DNA of 64,000 nucleotides, from positions 1,736,001 through 1,800,000 of the forward strand of contig NZ_CP133594.1 of NCBI RefSeq assembly GCF_031312535.1, given 5' to 3'. A model generated the notes under the pieces. It saw only the letters and a program-made list of their open reading frames with translations, had not been told where the DNA came from and searched no databases. The translations under genes and the position numbers were made by a program. This DNA is from Methanolobus mangrovi. GTDB lineage: Archaea > Halobacteriota > Methanosarcinia > Methanosarcinales > Methanosarcinaceae. Shown piece after piece: positions 883 to 51,976 of this stretch (positions are counted from its first letter, which is position 1; every line of letters starts with the position of its first letter).

Positions 883-2127
883 TTATTCGTATCTCAGTGC
901 GTCAACCGGCCTCATCTTCGATGCGTTGTATGCAGGGACAATACCTGACAGCACTCCAATGACCACTGCGATGGAGATTCCCATTAGCATAAGGTCAGGA
1001 GCTATCGTCGAACCCATGGATGAACGCATCATAGATATTCCAAGGTACGGAAGCAGAGATGTTAACACAAGACTCAGCACTATACCGAGCACACCTCCTA
1101 CAAAACCCACCAGTGCCGAGTTAAACAGGAATATCATCAGAATATCCTTGTTCTTGGCACCAATGGCCTTCATAGTACCGATCTCCTTGGTCTTTTCCAT
1201 CACAGAGGTGAACATTGTGTTGGCAATCCCCACAGAACCTACAACAAGTGATACACCTGCTATGGCTCCCAGGAAGATAGTCATGGATTCCATCATTTCA
1301 CTGGCCGATTCTGCCTGCGAAAGTGAATCAGATACACTGAAGTCCCTGTCATCATCGTTGGCAATGTGCCTGGATATCAGGAGCTTCTCTTCGATCTCAT
1401 CAACTACTGTCTCGACGTTGTCGACACCATCCACCTTTACAACGATCTTGTCGTATACATCCTGTTCAGCATCATCAATGATATCCACTGCTGAGTCTAT
1501 CGGCATGATGATCGCATTATCACTTTCACCGTCTGCCAGTATACCTACAACTCTGTAGGATTTGCCTTCGATAGCAAGCACACGGTTCAGGCCGACCTCC
1601 TGATCGTACATGTCATGGGCAATTCCGTAACCAATGACCACGACGTTATTGTCGGTGGCTTCCAGCAATCTGCCGGATTCCAGTTCATAGGTAACAGTAT
1701 ACTGCCATACCTGTGGATCGACCCCGGTCACAGAGAGATCAGCAGTCTTACCCATAAAGTAAACTTCCAGATCACTGCCAGATATCTGACCATAGATGTA
1801 ATCGATATTCTCGACCAGTTTTATCGCCATGATGTCCTTATCTGTCAGTTCTGCATCATCTGAGGAATAACTGCTGCCCCCCATGCCAGGAGGACCGCCG
1901 CCGCCAAATCCTGACATGGCCTTGGTATAGCCAGGACTGACCTGAACCAATGTAAGGTCCATGTCAGCAAACCTTTCTTCCATATCTGCAGACATGCTAT
2001 CACTCAGCGCCATGATAGTGACGACCGAACCTACACCGATGACAATACCTATTATAGTGAGCCAGCTTCTGATCTTACTGTGGATCAGGATGTTCGTAGC
2101 AAGCTTTAGATAGGTACTTCGTCTCAT
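883..2127 (-). CDS. MacB/FtsX-type ABC transporter permease
   Basis: This 414-residue membrane protein is the permease of an ABC system of the MacB/LolC/FtsX type. Such systems act on extracytoplasmic proteins or lipids by mechanotransmission rather than by ordinary import. One membrane segment near residues 18-42 is followed by a large external MacB-like domain (about 45-275). Three more membrane segments follow in the C-terminal FtsX domain, which contains the family-typical EIGTMKAIGAKNKDI. A Gly/Pro/Ser-rich loop lies near residues 72-90. Its start overlaps the stop of the upstream exported gene by four bases (ATGA), and the ATPase gene precedes that, so the three form one operon. Substrate unknown. 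Confidence 0.88.
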   Translation of the reverse strand: MRRSTYLKLATNILIHSKIRSWLTIIGIVIGVGSVVTIMALSDSMSADMEERFADMDLTLVQVSPGYTKAMSGFGGGGPPGMGGSSYSSDDAELTDKDIMAIKLVENIDYIYGQISGSDLEVYFMGKTADLSVTGVDPQVWQYTVTYELESGRLLEATDNNVVVIGYGIAHDMYDQEVGLNRVLAIEGKSYRVVGILADGESDNAIIMPIDSAVDIIDDAEQDVYDKIVVKVDGVDNVETVVDEIEEKLLISRHIANDDDRDFSVSDSLSQAESASEMMESMTIFLGAIAGVSLVVGSVGIANTMFTSVMEKTKEIGTMKAIGAKNKDILMIFLFNSALVGFVGGVLGIVLSLVLTSLLPYLGISMMRSSMGSTIAPDLMLMGISIAVVIGVLSGIVPAYNASKMRPVDALRYE

Positions 2128-3500
2128 CTCTTTTCCTTCTTCAAGATCTTACCTTTAAGGTTCTTAATCTCAACACTCAGAGGTTCATAGGTACCTGCTT
2201 TCATCATTTTCTTTTTTCTGTAGTTCAATCCTGCAACTACAACTATCAGGAGTGCAGCACCATACAACAAGTAACTGTTACTCGATGAAGAGCTTTGACC
2301 TCCGGGCCCTCCTGCACCTATTGTCATGGTTCCTCCGGTCAGTTCTTCTATCTGAACTGCCTTCTCAACAGAGTGCCTCTGGCCTACAGAATCAGTGTAC
2401 TCGATAGTGACAAGAAGCTCATTTTTAGCTTCCATTTCTTCCTGCATAGCTTCCATATCCTCTTCTGTCATTTCAGAAGGTTCAGCTTGAGCCGTACCGG
2501 TTGAATCCTCAGCCATTGATGGCATTGTATTGGTCTGGGATATGGAGAATGAAGTGATGGTATAGTCACCTTTTTCGAGGTTACCTACTATAGTAGAGGT
2601 ACTTCCTGTAGCCTGGAAATTATCCTGCTCAGGTATCGACACCTTAACGGAGTAAGCCTCATTGTTACCTACGTTTGCAAGAGACAGGGACACTTCACCT
2701 TCATCGCTCTCAGAGTAACTCAGATCGAAATCTGTGCTGCCTCCGACAAACAGGCCTGCTTTGGTCTCAATGGTGTTGGTGTTTGAATCATAATCCTCGA
2801 ATTCAAGAGTAATGTCAAGCTGATACAATCCCGGATCTGCATTCACATCTGCCATTACAGAGTATGCTATATTTGCTGATTCTCCGACACCAAGATAGCT
2901 TATGTACTTGGTATTAGAGGAGTAAACTGGCAGGATAACACCAGTTGACTCGTCCCATGAAACAGCCATATTCTTGAGTGGGGAACTGCCAGTGTTAGTA
3001 ATAACGAACTCTATTGGTTCCACGGTTGCAACATCGATATTTGATTCGCTTATGGTGACGACCTGTGCATACTCTTTACCCTGTATATCTACGGAGACTG
3101 TTGTTGATACACTTGAATCGGTATCACTGTCGCTGACAACTATATCTACATCATAGCTGTCCTCTGCAACATCCGCATCAACCTTCATTTTGAATTTTAG
3201 AAGGGTTGCATCATCATCATCCTGACGGGCTTCAAGGAATGATATTTTTTTGCTCAGGGATTCACCGGATATCTCAGTAAATGGGTATTCCGGGTCTATT
3301 GAGACCACTATGTCTGTGAGGTCCTTACTTCCTACATTCTGGACACTGACGGTAAGTTCTACTGTTTCACCTGGCCTTGCAGGGCTTGGACTCTGGGTCA
3401 TCAGATCCACCTGTACACCGGATACGCTGGCAGAGATATCTGCCGATGCTGCTGTTATAGGTAGGACCAATACTAACATCAATAATAAAATTCGTCTCAT
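2124..3500 (-). CDS. Exported CARDB/COG1361-like protein with C-terminal anchor, ABC partner
   Basis: The start chosen is the ATG at 3500, preceded by GTGAT. A GTG three codons earlier is in frame but sits on that ribosome site. The product has about 458 residues: a signal peptide (1-22), tandem Ig-like beta domains of the S-layer-related COG1361/CARDB kind, and an Asp/Glu/Met-rich insert near 345-365. A Gly/Ser linker, one membrane helix near 410-430 and a short Lys-rich cytoplasmic tail end the protein. It therefore stands outside the cell, held by a C-terminal helix. It lies between the ATPase and permease genes of the same operon. I infer that it is the external adaptor or substrate-binding partner of that transporter. 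Confidence 0.75.
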   Translation of the reverse strand: MRRILLLMLVLVLPITAASADISASVSGVQVDLMTQSPSPARPGETVELTVSVQNVGSKDLTDIVVSIDPEYPFTEISGESLSKKISFLEARQDDDDATLLKFKMKVDADVAEDSYDVDIVVSDSDTDSSVSTTVSVDIQGKEYAQVVTISESNIDVATVEPIEFVITNTGSSPLKNMAVSWDESTGVILPVYSSNTKYISYLGVGESANIAYSVMADVNADPGLYQLDITLEFEDYDSNTNTIETKAGLFVGGSTDFDLSYSESDEGEVSLSLANVGNNEAYSVKVSIPEQDNFQATGSTSTIVGNLEKGDYTITSFSISQTNTMPSMAEDSTGTAQAEPSEMTEEDMEAMQEEMEAKNELLVTIEYTDSVGQRHSVEKAVQIEELTGGTMTIGAGGPGGQSSSSSNSYLLYGAALLIVVVAGLNYRKKKMMKAGTYEPLSVEIKNLKGKILKKEKR

Positions 3501-3505
3501 TTTTA

Positions 3506-4255
3506 TCACATTGCTTCACGGTTCTTAATCTCTATACTGTCGACCATTCCATCTTTAATATGAACCACACGATCTGCATATTTTGTAAGTTCAGGATCGT
3601 GGGTGATCATTATGATTGTTTTACCTTCTTTTTGGTGAAGGTTGCTTAAAAATTCAAGAATGTAATTTCCTGTTTCACTATCCAGGTTTCCTGTAGGTTC
3701 GTCTGCAAGGATGACTTTGGGATCTACTGCCAGAGACCTTGCGATTGCAACTCTCTGCCTCTGGCCACCGGATAATTGTGAAGGGAGATTGTATTTTTTG
3801 TCACTGAGAGAAACGATATCCAGAAGTGTTTCTGCTCTCTTCCATGAATCATCTGGGTCAGCTTCCTGGAATTCAAGAGGAAGCATAACGTTTTCGATTG
3901 TGTTCAAAGTTGGTAGCAGATTGAATGTCTGGAAGATGAAACCAATCAACTGGCCCCTGATCTGGGCAAGCTCTGATTCTTTCATCTGGGCAATGTTCCT
4001 GTTGTTAAGTTCGACAACACCCTTGCTTGGAATATCAAGACAGCCGAGCAAGTTCATCATTGTACTCTTTCCGCTTCCGCTTGGACCGAGTATAACTACA
4101 AATTCACCATGTAATATTTCCAGGTCAACTCCTTTAAGAGCCGCAAATTCGACTTCTCCCATCTTGTATATCTTCCACACATCAGTAAGACGCATGAGAG
4201 TATCCGGTTCATCGTTTGATGGTTTTTTGTTTACATTATTAAGATTCTCGTCCAT
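3506..4255 (-). CDS. ABC transporter ATP-binding protein (LolD/MacB family)
   Basis: This 249-residue ATPase energises the MacB-like permease encoded two genes downstream. Visible motifs are Walker A GPSGSGKST (57-65), the Q-loop FQTFNLLPTL (about 108-117), the signature LSGGQRQRVA (161-170), Walker B ILADEPTG (about 182-189) and the switch His in MITHD (219). The N-terminus carries a polar 20-residue extension before the usual family start, so initiation at MRLTDVWKIY is possible. The ATG at 4255 follows GAGGTAATC, which supports the longer form. It is the first gene of the three-gene operon ending at 883. Confidence 0.93.
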   Translation of the reverse strand: MDENLNNVNKKPSNDEPDTLMRLTDVWKIYKMGEVEFAALKGVDLEILHGEFVVILGPSGSGKSTMMNLLGCLDIPSKGVVELNNRNIAQMKESELAQIRGQLIGFIFQTFNLLPTLNTIENVMLPLEFQEADPDDSWKRAETLLDIVSLSDKKYNLPSQLSGGQRQRVAIARSLAVDPKVILADEPTGNLDSETGNYILEFLSNLHQKEGKTIIMITHDPELTKYADRVVHIKDGMVDSIEIKNREAM

Positions 4256-4348: not shown

Positions 4349-4540
4349 TTACAATCCCCTCAGGACTTCTTTTTCGCCTATTGGAGATATTTTTAACAAC
4401 CTACCAATCTGTTCCGGACTCAGTTTGCCAGACAAAGGGGAGAAAATATACTCTGTTTCAGGTTGATTCTTCTCATCCATTTTTGAATTATAGACATCGA
4501 ATCCTGCGAGCTGAACCTGTGTATCATTTGTATCTTTCAT
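4349..4540 (-). CDS. Small conserved-in-module protein, copy 1 (63 aa)
   Basis: The start at 4540 follows a GGAGATC ribosome site. The in-frame ATG ten codons earlier lies within the leader hairpin region and is less likely. I do not recognise a family. The C-terminal half shares a pattern with the small protein at 7132-7335: Ser-Gly-Lys-Leu-x-Pro-Glu-Gln-x-Gly-Arg-Leu-x-x-Ile-Ser-Pro-x-Gly. The N-terminal halves differ. This conserved block in two otherwise diverged copies argues that the frame is translated and selected. The gene is the last unit of the first duplicated module. About 20 bases separate the final leader hairpin from the start codon, so translation may be controlled by the leader RNA. 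Confidence 0.65.
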   Translation of the reverse strand: MKDTNDTQVQLAGFDVYNSKMDEKNQPETEYIFSPLSGKLSPEQIGRLLKISPIGEKEVLRGL

Positions 4541-4730
4541 TTTTGATCTCCAGATTCGAATAAGAGACACCCGACGGATAGGTGATAGGTGTCTCTTAGA
4601 CGAGGGGTTGTTGGTTGTTGGTACGTTGATGGCACCAGGCTGGATGTGGTTGGGGGGTTAGGTGCCACCTCGTTTGGGTGGTACCCACCAGGAATATTAA
4701 CTGGTAGGCAATCCATCAATTAGCCAGTTT
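4541..4730 (-). ncRNA. Structured leader RNA, copy 1 (four hairpins)
   Basis: Read on the minus strand, this gap before the small gene holds four inverted repeats. They are AACTGG/CCAGTT (4699-4704 with 4724-4729), GGTGG/CCACC (4677-4681 with 4685-4689), GGCACC/GGTGCC (4631-4636 with 4661-4666) and the perfect 10-bp arms TAAGAGACAC/GTGTCTCTTA (4561-4570 with 4589-4598). The leader at 7336-7510 has four hairpins in the same order. There the third keeps its stem and the loop core GGCTGGATGTGGTT, while the others keep pairing with changed bases. This is the pattern expected of a conserved cis-acting RNA. The ligand or partner is unknown. The 5' end is inferred from the TATA-like element at 4728-4747. 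Confidence 0.6.
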
Positions 4731-4747
4731 TAAATAAAAGCATACTT
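4728..4747 (-). promoter_or_regulatory. Shared-motif promoter P1 (leader/small protein copy 1)
   Basis: The minus strand reads AAGTATGCTTTTATTTAAAA, an AT-rich TATA-like box directly preceded by AAGTATGC. The same arrangement occurs at 7511-7530, 9581-9600 and 10032-10051. A start site about 25 bases downstream would put all but the first hairpin arm into the transcript. The rest of the gap up to 4970 is AT-rich and holds no gene. Confidence 0.55.
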
Positions 4748-4970
4748 ACTTTGAAAAGACAAAAAATAAGCAAATTTTGAAAAATAAAGCTTTATAGAGA
4801 TTCCAATACCAATAATACAGTTTATAGACCATCTAAAAGCTTATCCTAAATATAAAATAACCTTAAAACGTTTTAAAATAGATAATATGAACTATTACAG
4901 GCAAGAGATAGTTTGTTTTATAGAAAAAAGATCCATGGAAAATACCATGATTAAAATTCAAAGAGGATGA

Positions 4971-5891
4971 TCACTCATCCGATTCCACAAGGAAAAGGAC
5001 ATTTCCACGTCCCTTCTTAAATTTTTGGATCTTACCCCGCTTTTCAAGGTCAAGAAGCATGAGACTGACCTTACCTTCAGAGTACTTCAGGCGCTTACGC
5101 ATATCTTTTTGCGTCATCCTTCCACCCTGGGTCTTCAGAATATCCAGAATCTCCTGAAGATCTGCAGGTACGGGTTCATCGGGATTAATTGGTGCAGCAT
5201 TAAGTGGTTCTCTTTCGGACTCCACTGAAGATGTGATTCCAGGTTCATCCAATATTTCAGTTATTGTTTCTTCCCTGTCTTCTTCTAATGCCATATCCTG
5301 TACTTCTTCCCTGATCATTTCAGCAGCATCTCCGGTAACTACATGTGACACATGAGAAGTTTCGTCATCATTCTCGTCTTCCTTTATTGGCTTTAATGCC
5401 GGAGATCTTTGTGGCCTCTGTTTCATCTGATATGCCAGCAGGACCAAAAGAATGATAACAACAAATATGGAGCCAAAAATAAGTGAACTTGCGTTAGCCA
5501 CCGGAGAAGAGGATTCAGTTTCGACATCCGTGACAGAAGAAGCTGTATCGTCCGAGCTGGAATAAGAAGGCAACAACAGCAGGTCCAGAACATAACTGCC
5601 TTCATCTGAAACTGTAATAATGTCTTCCGCATAATAGGTTAGCTGATCATCCTCATAATAACTTGCAGTGATGTGATACGTACCATTTGTTAATTCGAAA
5701 GAGTAAACGCCGTACTTGGCCACCATTGACTGGGCAGGAGTGGAATTTACCTCGATTATTGCATTGTCAAGGGGTTCGAATGTGCTCCATTCATAAGCTA
5801 CGCCATGTACAGTTGCAATACCTGAAGCTCCGGCAAGTCCTGATAAAAGCAGGATAATAGCAATACAACCGATGCAGGATATTACTTTCAT
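4971..5891 (-). CDS. Membrane-spanning winged-helix regulator, copy 1
   Basis: This 306-residue protein looks like a one-component transmembrane transcription regulator. It has a signal-like N-terminus (1-22) and an external beta-sandwich of the carboxypeptidase-regulatory/PEGA kind (about 25-110, with NGTYHITASYYEDDQLTYY). A Ser/Thr-rich spacer, one membrane helix (about 135-157) and an acidic cytoplasmic linker follow. The C-terminal winged helix-turn-helix (about 238-306) reads LKTQGGRMTQKDMRKRLKYS and then a basic wing rich in Lys, Arg and Gly. It follows the 304-residue anchored protein gene after 32 bases, probably in one transcript. The copy at 7691-8539 has the same architecture; the extracellular and DNA-binding parts are well conserved while the linkers diverge. 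I infer that it senses an external cue and binds a nearby promoter. Confidence 0.7.
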   Translation of the reverse strand: MKVISCIGCIAIILLLSGLAGASGIATVHGVAYEWSTFEPLDNAIIEVNSTPAQSMVAKYGVYSFELTNGTYHITASYYEDDQLTYYAEDIITVSDEGSYVLDLLLLPSYSSSDDTASSVTDVETESSSPVANASSLIFGSIFVVIILLVLLAYQMKQRPQRSPALKPIKEDENDDETSHVSHVVTGDAAEMIREEVQDMALEEDREETITEILDEPGITSSVESEREPLNAAPINPDEPVPADLQEILDILKTQGGRMTQKDMRKRLKYSEGKVSLMLLDLEKRGKIQKFKKGRGNVLFLVESDE

Positions 5892-5923
5892 GTCACAACC
5901 CTAAACCTAATATTTCTGGTATA

Positions 5924-6838
5924 TCAATCACTCTCAAATATTGACTTTATCCAGACACTTTCGTTTTCTTTAAAGGTACCATAATCGAAATAATAAGTCC
6001 CGTTTCCGACAAGCTCAGCTTCCCCCGTACCTGTTGCTACAAGACTGATATTATCATCCATTATCGCAACGGAAAATGATGATCCGGATAAAGACACATT
6101 ACCTGTAACTTCTACATATGAGACCATTTTTTGTGGCATCATCAAGTCAGGAGCTTCACCCCTTTCAGGTATGACTTCCTGCTTATATTCATGCTCCATA
6201 TCTATTGCTACATCTCTTGCAAAATCAATTACGGAGAACTTTCCATCAGACAGGAAAAAGCTAACATCAATATCTCCGGCCAATATGGCTACACCACTAC
6301 CTTCAGCAACCAGGCTGCTATTGTCAGATATGCCTACCGGACCGGTAAGATATGTTCTTACCTTATCGAATATGGGTTTAAGTTCTGAATTTGCACGAAC
6401 GATATTTTCCCTTGATAATTTGAGATATTGCTGCTCATCTGAGCTTACTGATGAATTTTCTGCCAGTGAAAGATATTTTTTGGCCTCTGATACAAGAAAA
6501 GCGTAATTGTCCACCATCTGTCCGAGTTCTCTGACATCTTTACCTTCCTGATTCAGACGTGCAACAGCTCCATCCAGACGTATTACCATTTCCTCTGACT
6601 TCTCAATATTATCTGCAAGAAAGAACTTCTCATCCACAGGAGAAGTATACGGAACTATGTACAGAATTGCTCTTTCACCCTTATAAGGCTCTTTCATGTC
6701 AAAAGGAGGGATGAACAATACATCAGATTGTTCCTGTCTTTCATCAGGATATTGTTGCATAAGCCCCGAATCCGTCATGCCAGAAATAACAACGAGCAGC
6801 ATGAGGAATATCAACACTATGAGAGGCATCTTTTTCAT
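5924..6838 (-). CDS. Anchored extracytoplasmic coiled-coil/beta protein, copy 1
   Basis: This 304-residue protein is of no family I can name. An N-terminal hydrophobic segment (about 4-22) without a lipobox acts as signal anchor. Next come a polar Gln/Pro/Asp-rich stretch, a helical coiled-coil-like region (about 75-160, with conserved LADNIEKSEEMVIRLDGAVA) and a C-terminal Gly/Ser-rich beta region (about 165-300). The beta region has two similar strands, GSGVAILAGDIDVS and GTGEAELVGNGTYYF. Its duplicate at 8564-9472 keeps all these parts. It is the first gene of a pair with the winged-helix membrane regulator, so it may be the external sensor or ligand partner of that regulator (inference). 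The start follows a GTGATC-type site. Confidence 0.6.
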   Translation of the reverse strand: MKKMPLIVLIFLMLLVVISGMTDSGLMQQYPDERQEQSDVLFIPPFDMKEPYKGERAILYIVPYTSPVDEKFFLADNIEKSEEMVIRLDGAVARLNQEGKDVRELGQMVDNYAFLVSEAKKYLSLAENSSVSSDEQQYLKLSRENIVRANSELKPIFDKVRTYLTGPVGISDNSSLVAEGSGVAILAGDIDVSFFLSDGKFSVIDFARDVAIDMEHEYKQEVIPERGEAPDLMMPQKMVSYVEVTGNVSLSGSSFSVAIMDDNISLVATGTGEAELVGNGTYYFDYGTFKENESVWIKSIFESD

Positions 6839-6948
6839 TGAAGATCACATCTTTGGGAGTATAAACAATAATTACGCATATCCTATTCTAAGACAGATAA
6901 CAGATATTCATGCATCTTAAACGTTTTCTTCATTTAATATATTCCATG

Positions 6949-6966
6949 TATATTTAAATGCATGCT
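6949..6966 (-). promoter_or_regulatory. TATA-like promoter P5 for the 5924-6838 gene
   Basis: The minus strand reads AGCATGCATTTAAATATA, about 110 bases before the start at 6838. It resembles the shared AAGTATGC-plus-TATA element less closely than the other four. The remainder of 6839-7131 is AT-rich with no gene seen. Confidence 0.4.
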
Positions 6967-7131
6967 CTTTGCTAAGGAATTAACATACATTCTGACATCG
7001 GACAATATGCCAATTGGAATATTGAAGAAATAAAACCGCGAGTAATTACTTGAAAAGTAAGAGGAACAAGAGAGGATCAAGTAAGCAAACTACCCACGGT
7101 TCTATAAAGGAAATTTGGCCTTATTAATAAT

Positions 7132-7335
7132 TCACCATTTGAAATCCTTTTTGGATATGGACATATTGTCACCAAATGGAGAGATTCTTGACAAACGACC
7201 CATCTGTTCAGGAGTCAATTTACTGATGAGACCTGAAGCAATGTAATATCTATCAGGATAGAGTGCCTGGGCACGGGTTGCTTCCTGAAGCCTTGATTCA
7301 ATGAATTGTTTTAACGAATCAGTCATATCTTCCAT
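7132..7335 (-). CDS. Small conserved-in-module protein, copy 2 (67 aa)
   Basis: The start at 7335 follows CAGGTGATC, a strong site for this genome. An ATG seven codons earlier in frame lacks such a site. The C-terminal half, SKLTPEQMGRLSRISPFGDN, matches the 4349-4540 protein in pattern, while the N-terminal half is a different acidic helix. The product is soluble and has no signal peptide. Function unknown. Its place behind the second structured leader repeats the arrangement of copy 1, which supports it as a genuine small gene controlled with or by that leader. Confidence 0.65.
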   Translation of the reverse strand: MEDMTDSLKQFIESRLQEATRAQALYPDRYYIASGLISKLTPEQMGRLSRISPFGDNMSISKKDFKW

Positions 7336-7510
7336 TTGATCACCTGTATCGGTCAAGAGATGCCTTGATTGCAGGCACCTCTTAAACGAGTGGGGGGTTG
7401 TTGGTACAATGGCGGCACCTGGCTGGATGTGGTTATGTATTTGGTGCCACTGGGTTGGGGGTGGTGTCTGCCACCATTTTATTGTTGACAGACAATTCCT
7501 CCATTAGCAC
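7336..7510 (-). ncRNA. Structured leader RNA, copy 2 (four hairpins)
   Basis: The four hairpins, in plus-strand coordinates, are AAGAG(a)TGCC with GGCA(c)CTCTT (about 7355-7383), GGCACC with GGTGCC (about 7414-7447), GGTGG with CCACC (about 7459-7474) and ATTGT with ACAAT (about 7481-7496). Compared with copy 1, the upper part of the first stem changes from ACAC:GTGT to TGCC:GGCA, so pairing is kept by double changes. The loop core GGCTGGATGTGGTT is identical. It lies directly before the small gene at 7335. The AT-rich remainder up to 7690 shows nothing else. Confidence 0.6.
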
Positions 7511-7530
7511 TTTTAAATAAAAGGATACTT
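7511..7530 (-). promoter_or_regulatory. Shared-motif promoter P2 (leader/small protein copy 2)
   Basis: The minus strand reads AAGTATCCTTTTATTTAAAA, 18 of 20 or more positions like P1. It is followed by GTGCTAATGG, which resembles the bases after P1 and P4. It is placed about 20-25 bases before the presumed 5' end of the leader. Confidence 0.55.
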
Positions 7531-7690
7531 GCTGAGAAAGAGATGATATCTGGTAAAAACGAATAATAAAACTTTATAGGCACTTTTATCAGAGAAATAG
7601 ACCATAAAATACAACAGAATACTTATCTAAATTCAATTGAACTTTTATTATACAAAATACTGCATTATAAACAGGTAACGTTTCCATAAA

Positions 7691-8539
7691 TCACTCTTCC
7701 AATCCTGTCAAAAACAGGATGTTTCCACGCCCTTTCCTGATCTTTCGTATGTCGCCCCTTTTTTCAAGATCAAGAAGCATAACACTTACCTTGCCTTCTG
7801 AGTAAACAAGAAACTTACGTAACTCCCTTTGGGACATGGTACCCCCATGGGATTTCAGGATATCAAGTATTTCCTTATGCTGGGTTGACAGTGGTTCTGG
7901 TATATGGACCATATCTTTGGGGGGATGTTCATCTTCATGAACAATTGAATGGAATATATTTTCATGAAATTGAGATTTTAATTGCTCCGGAAATGCAGCC
8001 TTTTCTTTTGGAGATGAAACTTTAACAGGAGAAGCAGAAAATGCATATTTAAGATTGTGCTTTATATGAGGCTCTGTTAGTGGTTTCTTCCTTATTTGAT
8101 AAAACAATGAAACAACAAGGATTAACATAATAACAACAGAGACAGCGAGCAGAGAAACTGATAATGATACTTTTGCAGAATCAATATATTCTTCCGCAGG
8201 GGTAGGGGAATAAGAAGGTAAGAGTAACAGGTCTACTACATAATTCCCCTCATCCAGTACGGTTATCACATCTTCCCCGTAATATGTAAGCTGATCACCT
8301 TCATAATAACTGGCAGTGATGCGATAGGTACCCTTGGGTAATTCGAATGAGTAGATGCCATATTTTGCAACAATTGATTGCACCGGAGTGGAATTTACCT
8401 CGATTATCGTATTAGCCAGAGGATCGAATGTATTCCACTCATAAGCTACGCCATGAACAGTTGCAACATATTCAGCAGAAGCAATTCCTGAAAAAAGTAA
8501 AATGATGGCGATGCAACCTGCACAATATGTAATTCTCAT
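7691..8539 (-). CDS. Membrane-spanning winged-helix regulator, copy 2
   Basis: This 282-residue duplicate of the 4971-5891 regulator has a signal-like segment (1-22), an external beta-sandwich (about 24-110), a membrane helix (about 122-146) and a poorly conserved cytoplasmic linker. The C-terminal winged helix (about 215-282) contains LKSHGGTMSQRELRKFLVYS and a basic RKIRKGRGN wing. The linker is shorter and richer in His and Lys than in copy 1. The domains, rather than the linker, have been conserved since duplication. It lies 24 bases after the anchored protein gene at 8564, so the two are co-transcribed. I infer a membrane-bound one-component regulator. The recognition half of its winged helix differs at a few positions, so target sites may have diverged. 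Confidence 0.7.
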   Translation of the reverse strand: MRITYCAGCIAIILLFSGIASAEYVATVHGVAYEWNTFDPLANTIIEVNSTPVQSIVAKYGIYSFELPKGTYRITASYYEGDQLTYYGEDVITVLDEGNYVVDLLLLPSYSPTPAEEYIDSAKVSLSVSLLAVSVVIMLILVVSLFYQIRKKPLTEPHIKHNLKYAFSASPVKVSSPKEKAAFPEQLKSQFHENIFHSIVHEDEHPPKDMVHIPEPLSTQHKEILDILKSHGGTMSQRELRKFLVYSEGKVSVMLLDLEKRGDIRKIRKGRGNILFLTGLEE

Positions 8540-8563
8540 GTCACATTACCATATATGCACATC

Positions 8564-9472
8564 TCAATCAATATCAAATATTGGAGAGATCCAGGTTCCT
8601 TCTTTACCCATGGTGGCGTTATCCAGATAATAGGAACCATTGCCATATAATTCAGCTTCTCCAGTGCCTTTTACAAGAAGACTTACATCATCATCACTCA
8701 TGATAGCTACAGTAAGCTCTGAACCAGAGAGGGTCACATTACCCCGGACATCAACATAGGAATACAACTTTTGTGTCTTTTCAGGGTCAACTGATGGAAT
8801 TGCCCTCTCCAACACGATTTCAGGACTATATATTTCATCTGTCGAAATATGTAGATCTCCTGCATAATCAACTACTGAAAACTTGCCCATAGAGAAACTA
8901 AGATCTATATCAAGGTCACCCGATAATATAACAATTCCACTTCCGTTAACATTCAAGCTATCGTTTCCGGATATACTGACAGGTCCGGGAAGATATGTTT
9001 GCATCTTATCAAAAATACCTTTCAGCTCAGAATTTGCAAGAATTATCTTATCTCTTGATAACGCAAGATATTTCTGTTCATCTGAAAGCGAAGTAGATGC
9101 ATCAGCCTTTGAAAGATAATCTTTTGCCTCGGATACGAGCAAAGCATAATCATCAACCATCTGTTCAAGTTCCTGAACATCGTTACCTTCTTCATTCAGT
9201 CGCACAATCGTACTATCAAGACGCTCTACCATTTCATCTGATTTTTTGATGTTGTCTGCAAGAAAAATACTTTCGTCTTTTGGAGCAGGTTTGTCACCTG
9301 ACGCAAAAGATGGATTGTCATCGGATAAGTCCTTGCTTATATAATCAGGCTGTGAGAACAATAGACCATGGTGTTCCCCATGAACATCAGAGTTCCTGAC
9401 TGAATCAATAAACCCGGAGATCAATACGATAACTATGAGGGACATTATTAGTACAAGTGGCATTTTTTTCAT
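8564..9472 (-). CDS. Anchored extracytoplasmic coiled-coil/beta protein, copy 2
   Basis: This 302-residue paralogue of the 5924-6838 protein has an N-terminal hydrophobic anchor (about 5-22), a variable His/Asp/Ser-rich neck (25-60), a conserved helical region (about 65-160) and a beta region with GSGIVILSGDLDIDLS and GTGEAELYGNGSYYLD. No enzyme motif is visible. The variable neck and the conserved beta core suggest that the core has the shared role. It heads the second regulator pair, and its promoter at 9581-9600 carries the shared motif. Family unknown to me. Confidence 0.6.
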   Translation of the reverse strand: MKKMPLVLIMSLIVIVLISGFIDSVRNSDVHGEHHGLLFSQPDYISKDLSDDNPSFASGDKPAPKDESIFLADNIKKSDEMVERLDSTIVRLNEEGNDVQELEQMVDDYALLVSEAKDYLSKADASTSLSDEQKYLALSRDKIILANSELKGIFDKMQTYLPGPVSISGNDSLNVNGSGIVILSGDLDIDLSFSMGKFSVVDYAGDLHISTDEIYSPEIVLERAIPSVDPEKTQKLYSYVDVRGNVTLSGSELTVAIMSDDDVSLLVKGTGEAELYGNGSYYLDNATMGKEGTWISPIFDID

Positions 9473-9580: not shown

Positions 9581-9600
9581 ATTTAAATATAAACATACTT
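9581..9600 (-). promoter_or_regulatory. Shared-motif promoter P3 (8564-9472 gene)
   Basis: The minus strand reads AAGTATGTTTATATTTAAAT, the AAGTATG box plus a TATA-like element at the same spacing as at 4728, 7511 and 10032. It lies about 110 bases before the start at 9472. Confidence 0.5.
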
Positions 9601-10031: not shown

Positions 10032-10051
10032 AAGTATGCTTATATTTAAGC
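10032..10051 (+). promoter_or_regulatory. Shared-motif promoter P4 (10137 gene)
   Basis: The plus strand reads AAGTATGCTTATATTTAAGC followed by CTGCTAAT. This is nearly the same as P1 and P2, which are followed by CTGGCTAAT and GTGCTAAT. A start about 25 bases downstream leaves a leader of roughly 65 bases. Confidence 0.55.
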
Positions 10052-10136: not shown

Positions 10137-10910
10137 ATGAAACACAGATTCATGAAAACTCTGGCCTGTCTTTCATTAGTGCTAATGGTGTTCAGTGCTG
10201 TGGCACCAGGTGCTTTTGCTGATGAGACAGGAACCACGGAAGACACAAAAGAATTCGGCGATCATCCAATGATGCATGGCCCACATGGAAATCCTGAAAT
10301 GAGTGATGAGGGACTCATAGAAGCAATGGAATTCGAGTCAGATGATGAAGAGATGGCATTCCTTGTGGAAAAGGAGACAGAACACATCAACAACAAGATC
10401 GACATGCTAAACGAAAAGCTTGCTGATCTCGAAGAGAACAGCGAGGAGTATGAAGCAATCAGTGCAGAAATAGAGGAACTCGAAACACTTCTTGGCGAAC
10501 TGGGAGATGTAACTACACTTAATGATCTCAAAGCAATACTGGATGAGGTAAGAGAATCCATGATGGACATGAGGGGTGACAGACCCGAAATGGAAGCAAT
10601 GCAATTCGAGTCAGATGAAGAAAAGATGACTTTCCTTGTAGATAGCGAAACAGAACACATCAACAACAAGATCGACATGCTAAACGAAAAGCTTGCTGAT
10701 CTCGAAGAGAACAGCGAGGAGTATGAAGCAATCAGTGCAGAAATAGAGGAACTCGAAACACTTCTTGATGAACTAGGAGATGTAACTACACTCGATGAAT
10801 TCAAAGAGATACTGGAAGAGTACAGAGAAGATAGCCCAAAGTCACATGAACATGGAAGAGAACGCAGCCTCATGAATCATGAATTCCAGAAAGAAGTAAC
10901 CGCCGAGTAA
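10137..10910 (+). CDS. Exported acidic coiled-coil protein with internal duplication
   Basis: This 257-residue protein has a clear signal peptide (1-28, cleavage after AFA). The rest is very acidic and helical, in two long repeats of 91 residues. Each repeat holds a coiled-coil segment (TEHINNKIDMLNEKLADLEE and following). The central 118 bases of each repeat (10377-10494 and 10650-10767) are identical in DNA, so the duplication is recent or homogenised by conversion. Flanking parts of the repeats differ moderately. No enzyme motif is visible. The promoter shares its upstream box with the duplicated module at 4349-9472, suggesting common control. I infer an abundant envelope-associated protein. 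Function unknown. Confidence 0.7.
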   Translation: MKHRFMKTLACLSLVLMVFSAVAPGAFADETGTTEDTKEFGDHPMMHGPHGNPEMSDEGLIEAMEFESDDEEMAFLVEKETEHINNKIDMLNEKLADLEENSEEYEAISAEIEELETLLGELGDVTTLNDLKAILDEVRESMMDMRGDRPEMEAMQFESDEEKMTFLVDSETEHINNKIDMLNEKLADLEENSEEYEAISAEIEELETLLDELGDVTTLDEFKEILEEYREDSPKSHEHGRERSLMNHEFQKEVTAE

Positions 10911-11014: not shown

Positions 11015-11620
11015 ATGAGAAGAGAGATTACTATATCATTCGCTTTATTGATGATACTTTTCAGCACTGCAATACCGGGAGTATATGCCATGGAAGATGA
11101 CACCGGCATGGAAATGCCTGAGATGGATGCTGCCCAGATGAAAGAAATGACCCTTGGAATGATAGAAAATAATATTGATTCACTAACCAATCTTCAATCG
11201 GAACTTGATGATGAAGAACTGCTGGATTCTGTTGACGATCTTCTTGAACAGGTCGAATCACTGAAAACAGAGCTTGAATCAACTGACGATGAAGAAGCGA
11301 TATTTGAGATAATGGATGAATTCAGGAGCTTAATGGAAGAAGCACCTGAAGAAGTACGAGATACATTGATGCAAAACGGTCAGATGAGTGGAGAAGGTCA
11401 GAACCCCATGGGCGGAAATAGAACCATGATGGAAGGCAACGAAAGTATGCAAGCTCAAGATGGCGATTTCCATGGAAATGGAAGCATGACCGGTGAAGAG
11501 AGAATGAATAAACCCACTGACAGCGGTGTTACAGGCGATGAAACAATAGATGATGATACATCTGAAGAAACTACAGGACTGCTGAGTGGTCTCATTAACA
11601 TGATTAAAGGACTTTTCTAA
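11015..11620 (+). CDS. Exported acidic Met-rich protein
   Basis: This 201-residue protein has a signal peptide (1-25, cleavage after VYA). The mature part is rich in Asp, Glu and Met, with a helical stretch (about 50-115) and a Gly/Asn/Met-rich stretch (about 120-160). A short amphipathic hydrophobic C-terminus, GLLSGLINMIKGLF, could attach to the membrane. I do not recognise the family. Strong composition likeness to the preceding exported protein and the same orientation suggest related envelope roles. AAGGAG precedes the start by 9 bases. The Met and acidic residues could bind metal, but this is only a guess. Confidence 0.6.
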   Translation: MRREITISFALLMILFSTAIPGVYAMEDDTGMEMPEMDAAQMKEMTLGMIENNIDSLTNLQSELDDEELLDSVDDLLEQVESLKTELESTDDEEAIFEIMDEFRSLMEEAPEEVRDTLMQNGQMSGEGQNPMGGNRTMMEGNESMQAQDGDFHGNGSMTGEERMNKPTDSGVTGDETIDDDTSEETTGLLSGLINMIKGLF

Positions 11621-51619: not shown

Positions 51620-51694
51620 AGCGGGGTAGGGTAGCCAGGAGATCCCGACGGGCTCATAACCCGTAGACCGATAGTTCGAATCTATCCCCCGCTA
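51620..51694 (+). tRNA. Initiator tRNA-Met (CAU), copy 1
   Basis: AGCGGGG pairs with CCCCGCT to give a first pair A1-U72. The anticodon arm is ACGGG-CTCATAA-CCCGT, with three G-C pairs next to the loop. Both features mark archaeal initiator tRNA. No intron or encoded CCA is seen. Confidence 0.92.
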
Positions 51695-51818
51695 CTTTTC
51701 TAATATTGCAGTTTTGACTTAACCATCAATTAATGTGTTAGAGACGTGTTTTGGAAACATACATATATAACAGGAAACATAGTAAAGCTATAGTTCCCAA
51801 TTAAACATCAATCCCTGA

Positions 51819-51893
51819 AGCGGGGTAGGGTAGCCAGGAGATCCCGACGGGCTCATAACCCGTAGACCGATAGTTCGAATCTATCCCCCGCTA
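51819..51893 (+). tRNA. Initiator tRNA-Met (CAU), copy 2
   Basis: This is identical to the gene at 51620-51694. Bases on both flanks are also similar (for example CTACTTTTCTAA, ACAGTTTTG, CAATTA), showing a tandem duplication of a unit of 199 bases. Confidence 0.92.
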
Positions 51894-51976
51894 CTTTTCT
51901 AACATTACAGTTTTGGTGCAGCCACCAATTAGTGCTTTAAGGTCTTCGCTCTCCCAAGCAACCAGAGGTAAACGAG

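Follow-up and report, generated by a model that had tools for sequence, protein, structure and literature searches.

We analysed a 64,000-nucleotide (nt) stretch of the Methanolobus mangrovi genome (assembly GCF_031312535.1, contig NZ_CP133594.1, positions 1,736,001-1,800,000), here called the window; all positions given are window positions. It contains a locus in which four parts occur twice, in the same order, on the minus strand (9472-7132 and 6838-4349): a predicted surface protein (A), a membrane regulator (B), a structured leader RNA, and a small open reading frame (ORF). An earlier note on this DNA had described a tandem four-part module, and the arrangement bears this out. The extent given there (4349-9472) was too short. 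Copy 2 runs into an ATP-binding cassette (ABC) exporter cassette, and two of the promoter boxes shared by the locus (9582-9600 and 10032-10050) lie outside those limits.

The exporter cassette (4255-883) adjoins copy 2 downstream and encodes an ATPase, a CARDB/NPCBM_assoc protein, and a permease with MacB_PCD and FtsX domains. We call it MacB-type for its ABC ATPase and its permease with these two domains. The term describes the permease only, as no MacA-type adaptor was found among the cassette genes and the third gene matches NPCBM_assoc/CARDB. The order of genes recurs in Methanolobus, including M. vulcani and M. profundi: sec1 and sec2 diverge from A1-B1-leader-small ORF-A2-B2-leader-small ORF-ABC cassette (Table 1). 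The cassette was present in 19 of 27 Methanolobus genomes and missing from the other 8.

Table 1. Features of the locus, in window coordinates
Feature	Positions	Strand	Description
A1	8564..9472	-	secreted or N-terminally anchored, 302 aa; three-helix bundle and beta-layer domain (predicted)
B1	7691..8539	-	predicted transmembrane regulator: transthyretin-like outer domain, transmembrane helix, DUF7343 winged helix
Box of leader 1	7512..7530	-	1 mismatch to AAGTATGCTTTTATTTAAA
Leader RNA 1	7349..7498	-	P1-P2-P3; model R1, 128.9 bits
Small ORF 1	7132..7335	-	67 aa; ATG start; Shine-Dalgarno-like GGTGATC
A2	5924..6838	-	304 aa; A1 paralogue
B2	4971..5891	-	B1 paralogue; winged helix nearly invariant across Methanolobus
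Box of leader 2	4729..4747	-	exact AAGTATGCTTTTATTTAAA
Leader RNA 2	4556..4714	-	P1-P2-P3; model R1, 146.7 bits
Small ORF 2	4349..4540	-	63 aa; ATG start; Shine-Dalgarno-like GGAG (GGAGATC)
ABC ATPase	3506..4255	-	exporter cassette
CARDB/NPCBM_assoc protein	2124..3509	-	exporter cassette; extracytoplasmic
MacB_PCD/FtsX permease	883..2127	-	exporter cassette
Box of A1-B1	9582..9600	-	2 mismatches
Box of sec1	10032..10050	+	2 mismatches
sec1	10137..10910	+	acidic, mostly helical secreted protein; divergent from A1, box in common
sec2	11015..11620	+	second small secreted protein, downstream of sec1

The paralogues are 52% identical in both pairs (A1 and A2, B1 and B2). The predicted structure of A has an N-terminal hydrophobic helix, a three-helix bundle and a beta-layer domain; a fold search with A gave no significant structural match. 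The model of B has an N-terminal hydrophobic helix (2-19), a transthyretin/carboxypeptidase-regulatory-like beta-domain, a transmembrane helix, a disordered linker and a winged helix. A hydrophobic helix at 120-150 of the model lies between the outer domain and the winged helix-turn-helix (wHTH), and the C-terminus matches the Pfam family DUF7343 in the two copies (E = 1.3e-14 and 4.4e-17). As modelled, B thus combines a DNA-binding domain and a transmembrane segment in one protein, the sequence definition of transmembrane transcription regulators (TTRs) (PMC10269533). The predicted topology gives B an extracytoplasmic sensor domain.

We found that the duplication is old. In a tree of B, all B1 sequences form one clade (support 100/99), and B1 evolves faster than B2. 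A single origin of B2 is compatible with the tree, which does not resolve it, and the placement of a single-copy lineage beside B1 is weak (87/91). Because of this clade structure, we conclude from the tree that a single duplication predates most of the sampled species with both copies. The earlier note had suggested selection on the whole set, and the set is indeed old and maintained, with the leader beside the regulator in 19 Methanolobus genomes and the small ORF in 18. The same note held that its reading would fail if homologues occurred mostly apart, or if regulator orthologues lacked the leader and small frame. Within Methanolobus this was not the case: the leader and small ORF accompany the regulator and have no significant matches elsewhere in those genomes.

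Another locus (L044, G000:C1 ~1172900-1178000) encodes a third regulator paralogue of the DUF7343 type, close to A-like genes. We found no promoter box at L044. B homologues similar to its regulator were present in most Methanosarcinaceae genomes searched.

A structured leader RNA and a small coding ORF

Both leaders of the window lie wholly upstream of their small ORFs and fold far better than shuffled sequences (z = -4.54 and -4.56; 0/200 shuffles as good). The two copies align with long identical blocks. An alignment of 27 homologues contains three helices, P1, P2 and P3. P1 is the 5'-terminal hairpin. P2 pairs GGUGGCACC with GGUGCCACC and closes a large loop, in which CCACAUCCAGCC is nearly invariant. 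P3 is just upstream of the small ORF. There are also long, nearly invariant unpaired segments rich in A and C. The Methanolobus leaders are more conserved in P2, P3 and the unpaired core than in P1.

The helices are supported by covariation. In the 27 leaders, 94.6% of cells pair, compared to 37-47% when the partners are slid, and 16/35 pairs have changed on both sides (compensatory change). The number of doubly changed cells was 68, compared to 22 in shuffles. A compensated fold directly upstream of a coding region marks the sequence as a putative cis-acting structured leader. Searches of Rfam gave no match to the leader at the gathering threshold and none credible at E ≤ 10, nor any to the leaders of relatives. 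By this test the leader is a new structured RNA family.

The leader was recognised in all 19 cassette-bearing Methanolobus genomes, in 16 of them with the RNA model R1 at the significance threshold of E ≤ 0.001. The others were weaker: two were found in a search of the locus (G005, 25.5 bits; G026, 20.7 bits) and one by eye at the same position (G015). The leader was not found in the 8 Methanolobus genomes without the cassette, and the genomes carrying it had no significant R1 match outside the locus.

The small ORFs most likely start at the ATGs at 7335 and 4540, which are preceded by GGTGATC and GGAGATC. The upstream TTG/GTG starts (7356 and 4570) assigned to them earlier lie inside helix P3. 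In nearly all loci the small ORF starts approximately 15-40 nt from P3 with a Shine-Dalgarno-like sequence. The median ratio of nonsynonymous to synonymous substitution (dN/dS) was 0.41, 0.35 and 0.15 in three groups, and judged by these ratios the small ORF is coding and under purifying selection. A profile search of the 27 Methanolobus genomes found it in 18. All matches at E ≤ 1e-3 were within the locus, and matches outside it were weaker (E > 0.01).

The copies of the small protein appear to have diverged in a complementary way. In single-copy species only tens of nt separate the end of the ORF from the ATPase gene that follows, and the ORF encodes a protein of 54-55 aa with two conserved halves, KDxFKQFIExRTQA...YVASAL and RKLTPEQMDRLLKISP...DFHW. 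In two-copy genomes, most copy-1 proteins retain the first half and a DFxW end, and copy-2 proteins retain KLxxEQMxRLxxIS. Copy 1 of the window still has both halves. From the sequences, this looks like complementary loss after duplication, and it is a clear case of the one apparently following the other.

Two loci have kept the leader and lost the small ORF (G018, and copy 1 of G002), and the RNA therefore does not depend on the ORF. In G018 the ABC gene follows the leader directly, and the more constant downstream partner is hence the exporter operon rather than the small protein. The leader is thus not simply a control element of the small protein, as had been proposed.

A rare promoter box at the locus

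We found a shared box, AAGTATGCTTTTATTTAAA, at four promoters of the locus. It is partly palindromic (AAGnATnCTT) and abuts the TATA element, next to which lies AAGTATGCTT; AAGTATGC is the part distinct from TATA. Variation among the sites is lowest in the AAGTAT part, upstream of TATA. Allowing up to two mismatches, there are only four sites in the 2.62-Mb genome, those of leader 1, leader 2, A1 and sec1. The earlier note had the regulator acting on nearby promoters. This proposal is favoured on sequence grounds: one box, with 0-2 mismatches, is present at four promoters of the locus and nowhere else in the 2.62 Mb. With a strict degenerate form of the box, the 27 Methanolobus genomes gave 61 matches, 52 of them in the locus. 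The reversed pattern gave 0 matches, as did the strict box in the 8 genomes without the cassette.

Matches outside the locus precede an operon of putative VTC-like/DUF4956-like and lipoprotein genes or, in G000 and G009, a presumed DUF4405-like/AMP-phosphorylase operon with a different hairpin leader. Two leaders (L183, G000:C1:494337, plus strand; L184, G000:C1:425578, minus strand) form a second class with a similar box upstream, and precede the DUF4405-like/AMP-phosphorylase operon and the VTC-like operon. Their hairpin, AAGATCACATGT...ACATGTGATCTT, encloses an A/C-rich loop with ACCAACCACCA and GTACCACCA. A GUACCAMCA element is common to this class and the R1 leader.

Related loci in other Methanosarcinaceae

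Model R1 found nothing at E ≤ 0.001 in 21 other genera sampled, and leaders there were therefore located by synteny and the box. The genus labels of these relatives (Methanosarcina, Methanococcoides) are inferred ones. In other genera the orthologous ABC cassette is preceded by a box and then a hairpin-initiated leader of very different sequence. In many cases A-B lies upstream. Where a cassette copy lacked the box, it also lacked an adjacent B. Of 62 leaders, 61 begin with a stable hairpin near the predicted start. A CCACC[CA] element followed the hairpin in 44/62, compared to 8.6 in shuffles, in rows that are related to one another. In the other genera the small ORF is either missing or without detectable relationship. 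Two candidate homologues of the small protein, an N-terminal extension of Methanosarcina-type ATPases and small ORFs of genus g25, were rejected, their similarity being no better than that of shuffles. The four-part unit of the earlier note is a Methanolobus elaboration; the unit found across the family is A-B, box, structured leader and ABC cassette.

Several individual leaders have further features. In three leaders of another genus (L134, L135 and L138, before an ABC ATPase gene), a few nt separate the end of a 3' hairpin, CACCUGUA...UACAGGUG, from the apparent ATPase ATG. The likely Shine-Dalgarno sequence, AGGUG, is part of the 3' arm of this hairpin, so translation could be controlled directly there. 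In leader L128 (~742-943), also before an ABC ATPase gene, the loop of a large hairpin contains GCACCUC, complementary to a Shine-Dalgarno-like GAGGUG before the ATPase start. In L129, L130, L131 and L038, two mutually exclusive helices share GGTGG (GCTACCAC/GTGGTAGC and CCTCTCAAGGTGG/CCACCTTGAGAGG).

Proposed circuit and alternatives

On balance we lean towards the notion that the locus is an envelope-sensing one-component regulon, with a sensor-leader module duplicated once early in Methanolobus, in which B acts via the box and the leaders add control. The outer transthyretin-like domain of B, perhaps with the neighbouring surface protein A, would sense the state of the cell surface, and the cytoplasmic winged helix would act at the box (AAGTATGCTT beside TATA), to which B would bind. 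The box would drive A1-B1 (autoregulation), both leader transcripts and the divergent sec1. The leader RNA would begin at or near the transcription start with its 5'-terminal hairpin and fold into P1-P2-P3 before the small ORF. The leader-2 transcript would continue through the small ORF into the MacB-type cassette, and the leader may add control of mRNA stability or translation over the small protein and the exporter. Both the signal and the direction of regulation enter this model as inferences.

The box might instead be only an unusually strong core promoter, made up of a transcription factor B (TFB) recognition element (BRE), TATA and the start region, of a few highly expressed structured transcripts. 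B would then have other targets, and its proximity would be historical. Several observations point in this direction and weigh against a role of B at the box. The box overlaps TATA/BRE, and a strong core promoter could thus account for its conservation; the stretch from TATA to the start is conserved as well. Outside the locus there are nine strict matches, upstream of other genes, including operons without a nearby B. A2-B2 has no recognisable box in front of it. Several Methanosarcina-type genomes keep the box and cassette and have the B homologue elsewhere in the genome, unlinked from both; this is expected if B acts in trans and is also compatible with a core promoter. In addition, the sites of the locus served to define the motif, which makes the concentration of matches there (52/61) partly circular; this does not apply to their near-absence elsewhere. 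We nonetheless consider a core promoter alone rather unlikely. A generic one should be common, whereas the four sites in M. mangrovi fall in one locus and the eight Methanolobus genomes without the locus have no strict match. Moreover, the least variable part of the sites is upstream of TATA, not within it.

Other explanations concern the RNA and the small protein. The structured RNA could be a stand-alone or processed small RNA acting in trans, sharing its promoter region with the downstream genes. It is retained at loci whose small ORF is lost or truncated, and its nearly invariant unpaired A/C-rich segments could contact other RNAs or proteins. However, the start of a small ORF with a Shine-Dalgarno-like sequence close to P3 in nearly all loci, and the position before the ABC gene of leaders of very different sequence in other genera, make a trans-acting RNA unlikely. 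It seems less probable still that the leaders are only 5' hairpins that stabilise transcripts against decay from the 5' end, with no regulatory input. Almost all of them do start with a hairpin near the predicted start and the rest differs between genera, but for stabilisation alone there would be no need of a P2, a P3 and an unpaired core more conserved than P1, as they are in Methanolobus. A regulatory reading of the leader is not helped by a local CCACC/GGTGG helix that we tried as an alternative fold or switch. This 5-bp helix is sequence-compatible in most rows and never compensated; lacking a compensatory change in it (CCACC/GGUGG in the RNA), we do not claim a switch. Finally, a short, quickly diverging gene before exporter genes might suggest a peptide (a signal or bacteriocin-like) that is exported by the MacB-type pump and sensed by A and B. 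We regard this as very improbable. The sequences of the small proteins lack a signal peptide, a hydrophobic segment and a double-glycine leader, the proteins are missing or unrecognisable in genera that retain sensor and exporter, and G018 has lost the small ORF and kept the exporter.

A wider version of the favoured circuit is tentative and, in our judgement, doubtful. It would be a two-level regulon of the whole family, with a transmembrane winged-helix sensor acting at the rare box and 5'-hairpin leaders sharing an unpaired GUACCAMCA-type element, to which a common trans factor would bind. Such a regulon might coordinate the envelope ABC cassette with secreted proteins and two or more further operons (VTC-like and DUF4405-like/AMP-phosphorylase), and the duplicated small proteins of Methanolobus would have divided the halves of the single-copy protein.

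In bacteria, MacB/LolCDE-type ABC cassettes occur with dedicated envelope regulators. The Methanolobus locus resembles them in having an ATPase and a MacB_PCD/FtsX permease beside a putative envelope-sensing regulator. It differs in being archaeal, in its CARDB-type accessory protein instead of MacA, in its one-component membrane wHTH regulator, and in its RNA leader. The closest archaeal analogy may be ArnR/ArnR1 of Sulfolobus acidocaldarius, a paralogous pair that controls surface-structure genes through promoter boxes (PMC6396743). Like these and other TTRs, B appears to join a DNA-binding domain and a transmembrane segment in one protein, and it too is a paralogous pair. In contrast to ArnR/ArnR1, it has a transthyretin-like outer sensor, a C-terminal DUF7343 wHTH, and linkage to an ABC exporter and a structured leader. 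The promoter logic is reminiscent of EarA, the archaellum activator of Methanococcus maripaludis, whose TACATA consensus is immediately upstream of BRE/TATA and which is thought to help recruit TFB (PMC5512572, PMC6396743). The Methanolobus box is single, longer, overlaps or abuts TATA, and serves other target genes. As a conserved, compensated 5' leader upstream of a transporter operon, the RNA resembles riboswitch-like or riboregulatory leaders, a type of candidate structured RNA (PMC2864571). It differs from them in having no Rfam match and in its long unpaired A/C-rich segments, which suggest protein or RNA binding. A literature search on DUF7343, archaeal envelope-stress regulators and Methanosarcina leaders found nothing on this system and no mention of DUF7343. 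The portion of the text available for the Methanolobus psychrophilus paper on transcription start sites (PMC5378194) does not mention the locus.

Little is known of how archaea sense their envelope, or of their cis-regulatory RNAs. The locus provides a covariation-supported RNA family absent from Rfam, and a candidate operator for the uncharacterised DUF7343 together with a defined target set, the MacB-type exporter and secreted proteins. The core of the putative circuit extends into Methanosarcina, where genetics is workable, and the hypothesis is therefore directly testable.

Two further observations concern the window. The strongly acidic sec1 has an internal repeat that is near-identical (INNKIDMLNEKLADLEENSEEYEAISAEIEELETLL...ELGDVTTL). 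Two tRNA-Met genes (51620-51695 and 51819-51894) lie approximately 200 bp apart with equal covariance-model scores, possibly a recent duplicate.

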